Shown in pieces: positions 44,412-49,756 of a stretch of 64,000 nt of DNA (position 1 is the stretch's first letter; each line of letters starts with the position of its first letter). The notes beneath the pieces are model-generated. The model did no database searches. It was not told the DNA's origin and saw only the letters and a program-made list of their open reading frames with translations. Both the position numbers and the translations under genes were made by a program. The DNA comes from Bdellovibrionales bacterium RIFOXYC1_FULL_37_79. GTDB taxonomy: Bacteria > Bdellovibrionota > Bacteriovoracia > Bacteriovoracales > Bacteriovoracaceae. The DNA lies in contig MEQB01000001.1 in assembly GCA_001770015.1 (NCBI GenBank), positions 1-64,000 on the forward strand. Direction: 5' to 3'.

Positions 44412-45701
44412 TCAGGTTTTAATTTCAAAATAGATAAAAATAATATTCGCTGCGAACATAAAAAAAACGATCAAGTAGCTGACCAGATTATAGATCGGGG
44501 TATTGGTGTGTTCGCCCATGACATCGGGGTCGTTGCAAAGTTTGATAATGTACAATAAAACAATTGGAATTAAAATTCCGTTAATGATTTGCGACCAGAT
44601 CAGAATGTTAAAGAGGTTGATTCCTGGCATGAGAATTAAAAGAGCACTAAAGGCAATAATTCCGGTAAATATCGAAAAAAAGTTCGGGGCTTCTTTGAAA
44701 GTTTTATCGACCCCGGATTCCCACCCCATGCCTTCACAAACATAATAGCTGGTTGCCAAAGGCAAAAGTGCCGCTGCAAAAATGGAGGCATTAAACAATC
44801 CAAAGGCAAATAGGGTGGAGGCATATTTGCCTGCTAATGGGGCCAGCGCGATGGCGGCATCCTTGGCATTACTGATGATAATTCCAGAGTTAAATAAAGT
44901 GGCGGCACAACAAATGATGATAAAAATGGTAACGGTTACCATGGTGGTACAACCAAGTATGACATCAATTTTTGAGTGGGTGAGATCCTTAGTGGTGAGT
45001 CCTTTTTCAACCACTGCTGATTGGATATAAAATTGCATCCAGGGAGTGATGGAGGTACCGATCAGACCAACAATAATAGGAAAATCACTTGGTTGTATTT
45101 CTCGAAAATCAGGGGTGAAAATCGCCGAGACAATATCCGTAAATGAGGGACCTATGATAATGCCTGAAATGACGTAGGAGATATATAAGGCGCATCCAAT
45201 TAAAAAAACGCGCTCGACGGTTTTATAATTTCCTTTGAGTATTAATAACCATACAAACACCGAGCAAATGGGAACCGAAATATATTTGGAAATCCCAAAA
45301 ATCTCTCCGGCAGAAGCAATGCCGGCAAACTCCGCCATGGTGTTACCCAGATCAGCTACCACCAGAAAGATAATGGTATAGAAGGTGATTTTCAGACCAA
45401 ACCGTTCTCTGATTAAATCGGCTAAACCTTTTCCAGAGGAAATTCCCATGCGGGCCGACATTTCTTGAACCATAATCAAAGCGATGGTGATGGGAATGAG
45501 CACCCATAGCAGGCGATAGCCGGTTTGCGCCCCGGTCAGGGAATAGGTGGCAATTCCTCCCGCATCGTTGTCAATATTGGCGGTAATGAGGCCCGGACCA
45601 ATAACTGCCAGTAAAAGAAAAATCTTTTTCAAAAAAGGCGGAAAATTTAGTTTGGAGATATAGTCTTTCGTAAATTCCCCTTTCTTTAGTCCAGTAACCA
45701 A
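44412..45701 (-). CDS. atypical Nramp-family metal transporter
   Basis: The 429-residue protein has about eleven membrane segments and Nramp-like TM1 and TM6, but with altered metal motifs. The usual DPGN of TM1 is IDNDAGGIATY, and the MPH of TM6 is GTSITPWMQFY. Canonical Mn/Fe transporters use Asp, Asn and Met there; loss of Met suggests another metal such as Mg (inference by analogy with Nramp-related Mg transporters). It starts with TTG within the 3' end of the MgtE_N-CBS gene (16-bp overlap), so both are made together. Confidence 0.8.
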   Translation of the reverse strand: MVTGLKKGEFTKDYISKLNFPPFLKKIFLLLAVIGPGLITANIDNDAGGIATYSLTGAQTGYRLLWVLIPITIALIMVQEMSARMGISSGKGLADLIRERFGLKITFYTIIFLVVADLGNTMAEFAGIASAGEIFGISKYISVPICSVFVWLLILKGNYKTVERVFLIGCALYISYVISGIIIGPSFTDIVSAIFTPDFREIQPSDFPIIVGLIGTSITPWMQFYIQSAVVEKGLTTKDLTHSKIDVILGCTTMVTVTIFIIICCAATLFNSGIIISNAKDAAIALAPLAGKYASTLFAFGLFNASIFAAALLPLATSYYVCEGMGWESGVDKTFKEAPNFFSIFTGIIAFSALLILMPGINLFNILIWSQIINGILIPIVLLYIIKLCNDPDVMGEHTNTPIYNLVSYLIVFFMFAANIIFIYFEIKT

Positions 45702-47017
45702 GGCAGTACATCATCAATAAAGACAATACCAAGCAGGGTATGGTCTTGTTCAACCACTGGTACATAAAACAGATTGTATTTGGACATATAACTGGCGACC
45801 TCTTTCCAATGAGTTTCTGGCGTGAGGCACTTGATGTCGTTGGTGATCATCAAGTCGCCGACTTTTAAATTTTCATTTTGAATAAGCAGTTTGTTAAGAG
45901 AACACGTTCCAATCAATTTATCAGAGTCATCGATGACATATAATTCGTAGAGGGTTTCTATATCATCATGCTCATTTTGAATAATTTGCATGATCTCTGA
46001 CTTGGTATGCCCGGGCCTAACGGTCAAAAATTCAGTGGACATCAACCCGCCGGCAGTATCTTCGTCGTATTCGAGAAGTTCTTGAATATCCTCTTGAATC
46101 TCGTCGTCTTCGATATTCTCAAAAATCCTTTCCCTGATATCATGACTTAAATCTTCCAGAATGTCGGCAGCCTCATCGGTACCCATGTTTTCAATTATAT
46201 CCGCTACTCGTTCGGGGGATTCAAATTTTAAAAGCATGGGTTGGATTTCAGGTTCCACCTCTATGAGGGTTTCGGCAGCCATTTCGGGGTCAAGCTCCTT
46301 AAAAATCAAATCTCTTGAGTGGGGATCTAGATCCTCTAGGATATCGGCCAGATCAGCGGGGTGAAGATTATTGAGTTCATCATTTTTTAAATTGAGGCGG
46401 ACATTGCTATGGACTGTTTTGTCGGGGATCGCGTGAACATATTTCCAGCTTATTAGCAGATTGCCGGTTAGATATTTTGAATTGGGATTGATGATTTTAA
46501 CAAAAAAATCCACCAATTTTTCAAATCCCAGTCTTCGTAAAAGGCTGCGCATTCCAATTTCGGCGTGGGTTACCCTGATATTTTGTCCCACGCGGATAAA
46601 TTGGATGTCATTGACCCGGACTACTTTTTTTCCATGGGTATCTACAATTTGTCTGTCGAGAATGACTTTTCCAAGCGGAGGATATTCCACAGCCTGGCCG
46701 GAGAATTGGCTAAACATTAAATTGGTGACGGTTTTTTTTTGACAAATTTTCGGAAAAGTTCGACTGCGTCCGATGGGCGATTCGTTGCGGATAATAATTT
46801 TTCTGCGGGAAAATGAGAGGATGTGTTCCCAGCGAACATAAAACACTTGATTATTTTTTTTAAATTGCAATGCCAGAACTTCGGGAAAAATATCTTCGTA
46901 GTTTACAAAGAAGTCAGTTAGTGACCCTACTTTGTTTTTCTCCTCGTTAATAATAGGTGTTCCGATCAGATCGGAAAAATTCAAGGTGATATCCGTGAAT
47001 GCATCAAATACGCTCAT
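45686..47017 (-). CDS. soluble PRC-MgtE_N-CBS regulatory protein
   Basis: The 443 residues contain two PRC-barrel-like parts (about 10-75 and 105-170), an MgtE N-terminal superhelical domain (about 215-300, LHPADLADILEDLDPHSRD and IENMGTDEAADILEDLSHD) and a pair of CBS domains (about 325-440; STEFLTVRPGHTK, MITNDIKCLTPETHW). In MgtE the N and CBS domains sense Mg and close the channel; here the MgtE membrane domain is missing and an Nramp-like transporter overlaps instead. It probably gates that partner in trans (inference). No signal or membrane segment is seen. Confidence 0.8.
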   Translation of the reverse strand: MSVFDAFTDITLNFSDLIGTPIINEEKNKVGSLTDFFVNYEDIFPEVLALQFKKNNQVFYVRWEHILSFSRRKIIIRNESPIGRSRTFPKICQKKTVTNLMFSQFSGQAVEYPPLGKVILDRQIVDTHGKKVVRVNDIQFIRVGQNIRVTHAEIGMRSLLRRLGFEKLVDFFVKIINPNSKYLTGNLLISWKYVHAIPDKTVHSNVRLNLKNDELNNLHPADLADILEDLDPHSRDLIFKELDPEMAAETLIEVEPEIQPMLLKFESPERVADIIENMGTDEAADILEDLSHDIRERIFENIEDDEIQEDIQELLEYDEDTAGGLMSTEFLTVRPGHTKSEIMQIIQNEHDDIETLYELYVIDDSDKLIGTCSLNKLLIQNENLKVGDLMITNDIKCLTPETHWKEVASYMSKYNLFYVPVVEQDHTLLGIVFIDDVLPWLLD

Positions 47018-47109: not shown

Positions 47110-48117
47110 TTATCTTAGAAATGCCAAAACATCCGAGATAATCTTCTTTTCATCATTTAAACCATGATAGCTATTTTTAGGGGTGACTTTTTTAAAGAAT
47201 GTTCTTTGACCTTTGGCAAGCTGTCTGGTGGCGATAACCATCTTTTGCACTAATTCTTCCTGGCTTTTAATTTTACCGGCTAAATAATCCAAAACTTCGC
47301 TATATCCGACTGAATTGATCGGCTTTTCCTTTCCTGTAATACCTTGTCGTAGCAGGTTTTGTACTTCTTCGATGAGATGGTTTGCGAGCATTGCATGAAC
47401 CCGTTTTTGAATAATTTTCTGATGCTCCAGCTTGGGTATATCCAGATAGAGATGAAAAATATTCCAATTGGGATGCTGATTGATGCTAAAGTCGTACGGG
47501 GAATTATGGTCAAATACCTTTTTTTGATCGGATAATTTTTCGGTGGTCATCATATGATGTTCTACTGCCCGAATTATTCTATAATGGTCGTTGGGATGAA
47601 GACTTTGATAACTTTCCAAATCATATTGCTTTAAATAATTAATGAAAAAAGTGATTCCATTTTTTTTATATTCTGATTCATTAATTAATTTTTGCTGGGG
47701 AGAGATCTGGCATGAGTCATACATTCCTTTAATGAGTGCTCGCAAGTAGAAGCTACTGCCTCCCACTAGAATAATCACTTGATGGTTAGCATGATGTCTG
47801 GCGATCAAGTCACTGGCGGTTTTTACAAAGTCGGCTGTGTTGAAGGGGCTGGTGATGGATCTGATATTGATCAGTTCATGGGGGTGCATGGCGAGTTCAA
47901 CTGGACTTGGTTTGGCCGTTCCGATGGAAAGCTCCTGGTAAAAAAGCAGAGAATCGAAATTGACAATAACCACTGGTTGGTTTAACTGGTCCTTGATGGC
48001 GGAAGCAACTTTTAAACTTATTTGGGTTTTGTTGGTTGCCGTTGGGCCTGAAATAATGATTATTGGTTGTGTTTGCACGCTAATCCCGGGTAAAGAAGTG
48101 GGCCAGTTTTTCGTCAT
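47110..48117 (-). CDS. miaA: tRNA dimethylallyltransferase
   Basis: The enzyme (up to 335 residues) adds dimethylallyl to A37 of tRNAs. It shows the P-loop GPTATNKTQISL (usual form GPTASGKT), FDSLLFYQELSIGTAKPS, VGGSSFYLRALI and ATRQLAKGQRTFFKK near the end. Asn replaces Gly before the P-loop Lys. The ATG at 48117 overlaps mutL by 38 bp; a GTG at 48078 just after the mutL stop is an alternative that still keeps the P-loop. mutL-miaA is a common pair. Confidence 0.88.
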   Translation of the reverse strand: MTKNWPTSLPGISVQTQPIIIISGPTATNKTQISLKVASAIKDQLNQPVVIVNFDSLLFYQELSIGTAKPSPVELAMHPHELINIRSITSPFNTADFVKTASDLIARHHANHQVIILVGGSSFYLRALIKGMYDSCQISPQQKLINESEYKKNGITFFINYLKQYDLESYQSLHPNDHYRIIRAVEHHMMTTEKLSDQKKVFDHNSPYDFSINQHPNWNIFHLYLDIPKLEHQKIIQKRVHAMLANHLIEEVQNLLRQGITGKEKPINSVGYSEVLDYLAGKIKSQEELVQKMVIATRQLAKGQRTFFKKVTPKNSYHGLNDEKKIISDVLAFLR

Positions 48118-49756
48118 CTATCACGGTAACCATCCCAGATGAGACCAGGTCAGTTATTTGAAATTGGGAAAGCATTTCCTGGAGCTTGGTGGAATTAATA
48201 CTTAGGGCATAATCAAAACTTGAATCAGTTAACCACTGATTGACCAAGGCAAGACCATTACCCTCAGGGAAATCATTGATCCTCTGGGCAAGGTAATCCA
48301 GAAGATTTTTAAATAAAAGATCAAGCGGAAGTTCCAGACAAAAGTCGGGAATAGTTCTCAGTACCAATAAATTGGCATCAAGGATATCTAGATTAATACC
48401 AGTTTTTAAAAGCTCTGGAAGAAAACTTTTCACCCTTTCACTAGGCAGATGAAACGGTTCGCTTATGAGTAGCGGGATAAGTTTATTTTCGTGGACCGGG
48501 TACGTTTGCTTAAAATTTATTTTTAGAAACTCTTTTAATAATCTTTCAAAAGCAATCAGATAATTGCACTCCTTTTTTAAAAGAATATATTTATGAGAAA
48601 GTGGAAAAAAAGATGAAGTGGAGGAGTCTCGGTGCGTTTGGGGGGCTTGATCTGAAGGGGATGGTAAATAAGAGGTGACGGAGAGTTTGGTCAAGTTATC
48701 CGGGGGAGTCGGGATATCAATTTTTAATTTTAAATCATTCACGGCTGTCTTAATTGCTTCCATGATGAGCGAACAAATCAGGTTTTCGTTGAAAAACTTG
48801 ACGCTAGTTTTGGCCGGATGAACATTGATATCAATTTGATCGGGTGGAAGGTTAATAAAAAGGGCATAATGACCGGTGTGTAAAGCGGGCCAAAATCCCG
48901 CCAGGCTTTTAAGAATAATCTGATTGATTTTTTTATCCATAAAAAGCCGGTGGTTGACAAAGAGAAACTGGTGTTTATAAGCATTACTCTTATTGGTTTG
49001 GTGGGAGAAATAACCGTTGATGTGGATGGCCTGATATGAGGTGCTGGCATGAAGTAGCTTGCCTGAGTTGGTTTTTTTATTGTTAAAAATTTGCGTTATG
49101 CGGTTCGTATATTGGGTTTTTTCGGTGCTGGGATAGATTATTTTGTCTTGCTCATCTTGCTTGAGTGAAAAAGCAATGGAAGGGTTTGAGATGATAAATG
49201 CATTTATGATCCGGCAAATGGCGTTTTGTTCAGAAGTCCTCGCCTTGATGAATTTTAGTCGGGCAGGGGTGTTGTAAAACAAGTCTTTGATGAAGATGGA
49301 TGTTCCAGATGTTTCTGCATTAAAGGGGGTGTGTGAGATCATTTTCCCCCCGTGAATGATATATTTTCCTCCGTGTAAACGGGGAAGCCTGGGGGAACTT
49401 AGGCATTCAAGTCGTGCCACACTTGCCATGCTGCTTAATGCCTCTCCTCTAAAACCATAACTGGTTAAGTTGTAGAGATCTTCAAAAAAATTTAATTTGC
49501 TAGTGGCGTGCTTGGTAAAGGCCAAAGGTAGTTCGTCGAAACTCATACCCTTGCCATCATCTTCGATCGAGATAAAATTCAAACCTTGCTCTTTGATGGT
49601 AACATCAATCCGGGTTGATTTGGCATCAATGGAATTTTCCAGTAACTCCTTGATGAGTGAGGCTGGTCGTTCAATGACTTCGCCCGCCTTAATCTGGTTA
49701 ATCAAATGATCTGGTAACAGCTTGATCGAGCATTGAGGGGTTAAATCAGTTTGCAT
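48080..49756 (-). CDS. mutL: DNA mismatch repair protein MutL
   Basis: The 558-residue protein has the GHKL ATPase motifs: KELLENSIDAKSTRI, DDGKGMSFDELPLAFTKHAT and GFRGEALSSMASVA. The C-terminal dimerisation domain (about 390-558) lacks the DQHAX2EX4E endonuclease motif: at its place is IAFERLLKEFL. So it is a MutL of the nuclease-less type, which in E. coli works with MutH; whether MutH exists here is unknown. It overlaps miaA. Confidence 0.9.
   Translation of the reverse strand: MQTDLTPQCSIKLLPDHLINQIKAGEVIERPASLIKELLENSIDAKSTRIDVTIKEQGLNFISIEDDGKGMSFDELPLAFTKHATSKLNFFEDLYNLTSYGFRGEALSSMASVARLECLSSPRLPRLHGGKYIIHGGKMISHTPFNAETSGTSIFIKDLFYNTPARLKFIKARTSEQNAICRIINAFIISNPSIAFSLKQDEQDKIIYPSTEKTQYTNRITQIFNNKKTNSGKLLHASTSYQAIHINGYFSHQTNKSNAYKHQFLFVNHRLFMDKKINQIILKSLAGFWPALHTGHYALFINLPPDQIDINVHPAKTSVKFFNENLICSLIMEAIKTAVNDLKLKIDIPTPPDNLTKLSVTSYLPSPSDQAPQTHRDSSTSSFFPLSHKYILLKKECNYLIAFERLLKEFLKINFKQTYPVHENKLIPLLISEPFHLPSERVKSFLPELLKTGINLDILDANLLVLRTIPDFCLELPLDLLFKNLLDYLAQRINDFPEGNGLALVNQWLTDSSFDYALSINSTKLQEMLSQFQITDLVSSGMVTVIDDEKLAHFFTRD

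Follow-up and report, generated by a model that had tools for sequence, protein, structure and literature searches.

A soluble MgtE-like sensor encoded next to an Nramp-related magnesium transporter in a Bdellovibrionales genome: a putative operon for feedback-controlled Mg2+ uptake

In the 64,000-nucleotide stretch of Bdellovibrionales DNA that we have analysed, referred to as the window, two neighbouring genes on the reverse strand encode a soluble homologue of the cytoplasmic part of the channel MgtE, which we call the sensor, and a membrane transporter of the Nramp fold. The question raised by this locus is what the sensory part of a channel does without its pore, beside a transporter of another kind, and which metal the two proteins handle. 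The pairing itself has been known since 2014, and the window pair is a further instance of it: Shin et al. demonstrated Mg transport by NrmT genes, reported that most of these genes adjoin a homologue of the MgtE cytoplasmic domain, and proposed feedback regulation for this MgtE-like neighbour, with the role of a metal chaperone as the alternative (PMC4072509). Nothing on the neighbour gene was found in the later literature, most subscription papers being outside the search. What we add here is the obligatory co-occurrence of the two genes, their exchange with MgtE, the mapping of the Mg sites, a second barrel domain in the sensor, and a predicted complex.

The downstream gene is located at 44412..45671 on the minus strand, from its likely ACG start to its stop, with an open frame that extends upstream to a TTG at 45701; the open reading frame 44412-45701, of 429 residues, has the Nramp fold (PF01566, E=6.7e-94 in the Pfam search). 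Its metal motif in TM1, I-D-N-D-A-G-G (45555..45575, minus strand), contains D46 and G49 of the frame as numbered from the TTG, and its motif in TM6, G-T-S-I-T-P-W (45039..45059, minus strand), contains T216 and T219, as placed by alignment. The clade of the Nramp-related magnesium transporters (NRMTs) has been defined by DxxG in TM1 together with TxxA/T in TM6 (Ramanadane et al., PMC8806188), a pattern that the window transporter shows as D-A-G-G and T-S-I-T. The nearest solved structure is EleNRMT of Eggerthella lenta (PDB 7qia; E=1.6e-108, compared with 1.6e-24 for MntH structures), which shares the fold and the positions of both motifs but has TxxA in TM6, where the window transporter has TxxT; the NRMT of a close relative (locus L035) is 44% identical to EleNRMT, with a TM-score of 0.91. 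MntH and the classical Nramp transporters (DraNramp, ScaDMT, EcoDMT) have the fold and PF01566 in common with the window protein, but the similarity is far weaker: the DPGN and A/CxxM (MPH) motifs of the classical metal site are not found in the alignment, and the score against the NCBIfam MntH subfamily, 130, is below the cut-off of 430. Judged by the clade motif and its closeness to EleNRMT, the downstream gene is a member of the NRMT clade. The initial annotation had rightly set the two motifs apart from DPGN and MPH but had taken them as atypical; since D-A-G-G and T-S-I-T match the published definition, what seemed odd is the hallmark of the clade, and EleNRMT itself has NDAGG and GTTIAPW.

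The sensor gene (45686..47017, minus strand) encodes a soluble protein of 443 aa, in which the Pfam search has identified a PRC barrel (aa 13-77), an MgtE_N domain (aa 218-320) and two CBS domains that reach aa 441, followed by the stop. Neither the MgtE membrane domain (PF01769) nor the plug helix is present, according to Pfam and the alignment with MgtE of Thermus thermophilus (TtMgtE), and the match to TIGR00400 (mgtE), 143.8 bits, covers only the N-CBS part and stays under the full-length cut-off of 232.75. Pfam has thus borne out the named domains of the initial annotation and the end of the protein after CBS; what had been missed is a second conserved, barrel-like domain between PRC and MgtE_N, at about aa 106-196 (46430..46702, minus strand), recognised by its conservation and its signature LDxQxxD...RVND...RR.G...W. 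Invariant residues are more densely clustered in this domain than anywhere else in the sensor (D121, Q123, D126, R134-D137, R161, R162 and W191); the domain matches no Pfam family, and the structure search has given no credible solved relative. In our sample of 291 genomes from the phylum of the window, it occurs in exactly the 30 genomes that have an NRMT and in 0 of the 261 others. The ATP-site residue R187 of the CBS domains is not kept in the window sensor, and a search for viral relatives of the protein found none. Upstream of the sensor gene, at a distance of 92 bp, two overlapping open reading frames on the same strand (47110-49756), named from sequence reading, resemble miaA and mutL; given the shared strand and the short gap, the pair may be co-transcribed with them.

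We have mapped the Mg sites of MgtE, each of which from Mg2 to Mg7 is required for channel closure (site naming as in PMC5882242), onto the sensors through alignment with TtMgtE, counting 89 sensors. Residues D281 and D285 of the window sensor (46163..46177, minus strand) align with TtMgtE D91 (Mg4) and D95 (Mg6), and D436 (45710..45712, minus strand) aligns with D247 (Mg4); the D95 equivalent is kept in 89/89 sensors, and the two Mg4 equivalents in 79/89 (D91) and 80/89 (D247). The equivalent of E59 (Mg7) is E249 in the window and mostly acidic among the sensors, and the window sensor has all four of these N-CBS residues (E59, D91, D95, D247), which would form putative sites. The Mg5 residues D226 and D250 are replaced by N415 and P439, while E258 and D259 (Mg2, Mg3) are missing along with the plug helix. 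The N domain, the paired CBS domains and the D91/D95/D247/E59 equivalents are therefore what the sensor has in common with MgtE (PDB 2yvx, 2yvy), whereas the pore, the plug helix and the residues of Mg2, Mg3 and Mg5 set the two apart, as do the two barrel domains added to the sensor; with the residues of Mg4, Mg6 and Mg7 kept and the plug gone, the sensor still has the N-CBS clamp but no longer the channel's output element.

The pair is conserved well beyond the window. An NRMT-grade match occurs in 30/291 genomes of the phylum sample, in which the relatives of the window are named Bacteriovoracaceae or Bdellovibrionales, and the same 30 encode a full-length sensor. The 80 loci of a scan of named genomes, top-ranking matches of the query rather than a random sample, span Desulfobacterota, Omnitrophota, Nitrospirae, Firmicutes, Acidobacteria, Chloroflexi, Spirochaetes, Bacteroidota and others. 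Combined, with five duplicates removed by hand, the two sets contain about 105 distinct NRMT loci, 5 of them at contig ends; among the other 100, a sensor is located near the NRMT in 95, i.e. directly upstream in 87, upstream but with wider spacing or a split frame in 2, downstream in 3 and on the opposite strand in 3, and it is not nearby in 5, all five of these genomes encoding one elsewhere. The MgtE membrane domain, whose fusion to the sensor the initial annotation had named as evidence against its proposal, is absent from every sensor gene located beside an NRMT, and fused sensor-NRMT genes, for which that annotation had recommended a search, do not occur in the approximately 105 loci. 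These counts point to the sensor as a near-obligatory partner of NRMT. A programmed frameshift or read-through fusion has been rejected, because the relation of the two frames differs even between the window and a sister genome that is 94% identical (offsets of 2 and 1, respectively). Three further loci are worth recording: in a genome of Nitrospirae, a second NRMT stands directly beside the sensor (L124) in addition to an unlinked NRMT (L103), where one sensor may serve two transporters; a divergent pair has the reversed order, with the sensor downstream and an NRMT 37% identical to that of the window (L031); and a 54-codon stretch (L002, G000:C2:40270-40431), 54% identical to NRMT and with an internal TGA, is possibly the remnant of a second NRMT copy.

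The border between the two genes differs from the one first described, where the last 16 bases of the sensor gene were said to contain the TTG start of the transporter. No ribosome-binding site is evident ahead of the TTG at 45701, and a difference of 1 nt together with a stop abolishes this start in the sister genome (G196, locus L003). In relatives, the NRMT start is mostly found 22-27 codons before the GPG motif; both the window (45671) and the sister have an ACG 24 codons before it, and a Shine-Dalgarno-like stretch, AAAGGGGA (45676..45683, minus strand), precedes this ACG by 4 nt and is kept in the sister. The TTG start is doubtful because the sister lacks it and the ACG lies at the start position of the relatives, so that the 16-base overlap is probably wrong; with the ACG, the two genes are 14 nt apart. 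ATG, GTG and TTG are likewise absent from the conserved start place in L008 (ATT, 24 codons before GPG) and L018 (ATT, 21 codons), and an alternative TTG is found 11 codons before GPG in the window, the sister and L008. Translation of NRMT from ACG or ATT is likely, as judged from these alignments, and coupling to the sensor may perhaps assist it. In all, four genomes of the family (the window, L003, L008 and L018) have an NRMT gene with ACG or ATT behind a Shine-Dalgarno-like stretch, and non-canonical starts are possibly recurrent in this gene, coupled to that of its regulator.

A contact between the two proteins, for which co-folding had been suggested as a check, is indeed predicted. In some relatives the sensor and NRMT lie in one shared frame, so that reading the intervening stop as Gly yields a linked chain, and such chains have been modelled with AlphaFold2. 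The linked model from L035 (Bacteriovoracaceae, Bdellovibrionota) has a pLDDT of 89.8 and a pTM of 0.81, and that from L053 (Pelotalea chapellei, Geobacterales) has a pLDDT of 87.8 and a pTM of 0.82, its two halves being joined by about 27 disordered residues; a pTM of about 0.55 is expected for halves without a fixed orientation. The sensor half resembles the Mg-bound cytosolic domain of MgtE (2yvy; TM 0.85) and the transporter half resembles EleNRMT (TM 0.91). The pTM values of these relatives' linked models suggest a defined interface; a direct sensor-NRMT contact is thus a prediction of the models.

The metal is pointed to indirectly, by the gaps of the window's own genome, the replacement of MgtE and the M-box riboswitches of relatives, all of which suggest Mg2+ transport by the window NRMT. 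Searches of the window's own genome (96% complete) for the MgtE membrane domain and for CorA gave no match, and the present NRMT is its only Nramp above threshold. Among the 97 genomes of its family (f1), the pair alone occurs in 22, MgtE alone in 67, both in 3 and neither in 5 (Fisher p=4e-14, a value that overstates the exclusion because the genomes are related). In this family, and also within its genera, a genome that has the pair almost always lacks MgtE and vice versa: five genera (g2, g6, g7, g8 and g9) each hold genomes of both types, which argues for repeated replacement and not for one event. M-boxes are located upstream of the sensor gene in eight loci (L040, L042, L049, L050, L052, L053 and L079, as well as L085, where the distance exceeds 1 kb); in two Firmicutes with the sensor elsewhere (L051, L056), an M-box precedes NRMT instead. 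None is found in the window between 43500 and 48500, in the short loci of its relatives L001, L003, L010, L015 and L024, or in L034, L035 and L037. Many, not all, of the published NrmT-associated MgtE-like fragments have an M-box upstream, the pair of Acidobacterium capsulatum being among those without (PMC4072509).

We consider it reasonably probable that the two genes form an operon that serves Mg2+ uptake and in which a soluble, MgtE-derived sensor acting on NRMT provides the feedback control. The sensor would be what remains of MgtE after loss of the pore and the plug helix, namely its cytoplasmic N-CBS half, preceded by two additional barrel domains; at high cytoplasmic concentrations, Mg2+ would bind to the retained N-CBS sites, i.e. 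Mg4, Mg6 and possibly Mg7, the Mg2+-bound sensor would adopt a compact form and hold NRMT non-transporting from the cytoplasmic side, and a drop in Mg2+ would make it release the transporter. From the kept residues we infer that the sensor binds Mg; Mg-dependent inhibition of NRMT is the presumed direction of the regulation, and the second barrel domain (aa 106-196) is a candidate docking domain on NRMT. The identity of NRMT, the obligatory partner, the replacement of MgtE, the M-boxes of relatives, the kept sites and the predicted contact count in favour of this feedback operon. Against it count the loss of Mg2, Mg3 and most of Mg5, although closure of MgtE needs all of them, the transport by NRMTs without a sensor, the lack of an M-box in the window, and the one published test, in which co-expression of the neighbour gave no further rescue by the A. 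capsulatum NRMT, a protein that mainly carried Mn (PMC4072509). The two-protein magnesium system of the initial annotation accordingly stands as the best reading of a conserved pair, strengthened by these results, and resembles the hypothesis already in print: the same partners in the same order, the sensor gene upstream, are known from the Ca_c0685 operon of Clostridium acetobutylicum and ACP2976-ACP2977 of A. capsulatum, with the same proposed feedback role (PMC4072509), and the window sensor, a stand-alone MgtE-cytoplasmic-domain homologue beside an NRMT gene, differs from many members of that published set in having no M-box at its locus.

The obligatory co-occurrence and the predicted contact would suit any stable complex, so the sensor might instead be an assembly or stability partner of NRMT, or a chaperone-like aid to the uptake and handing-on of Mg2+, and no inhibitor, in line with the metal chaperone named by Shin et al.; we regard this as improbable, since NRMTs transport in cells without the partner (PMC4072509), EleNRMT, which has no sensor in that work while the window NRMT has the gene alongside, was purified and characterised on its own (PMC8806188), and the Mg sites kept in the sensor are among those that closure of MgtE needs. 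Less probable still is that the window pair handles Mn2+, either alone or along with Mg2+, and that Mn2+ is the ion to which the sensor responds: the A. capsulatum pair fully rescued a Mn defect and only weakly a Mg defect (PMC4072509), and the window has TxxT in place of TxxA besides lacking an M-box, but the NRMT motif includes both TM6 variants, the pair takes the place of MgtE within the family, and its own genome has no MgtE, CorA or other Nramp. That the sensor acts on another target, such as gene expression, and is linked to NRMT by co-regulation alone is very improbable, because, even though its gene is unlinked to the detected NRMT in five genomes, Pfam has detected no DNA-binding domain in it, the linked models from two phyla are of high confidence, and the co-occurrence is strict even when the genes are unlinked.

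Returning to the feedback operon, we see evenly balanced chances for its wider form, in which the sensor would be a general, obligatory, Mg2+-operated brake of the NRMT branch of the SLC11 family, the gating module of a channel now serving an unrelated secondary transporter, and would dock through an NRMT-specific barrel in place of the plug helix, the whole unit having been repeatedly exchanged with MgtE. The finding bears on how NRMT importers avoid an Mg2+ overload of the cell, a question that has stood since 2014 and is now made directly testable by an obligatory partner, by three candidate residues for Mg binding that are nearly invariant, by the predicted complex and by genomes in which the pair has naturally taken the place of MgtE; if the proposal is true, a sensory module would have moved between two proteins of unrelated fold, an ion channel and a carrier.
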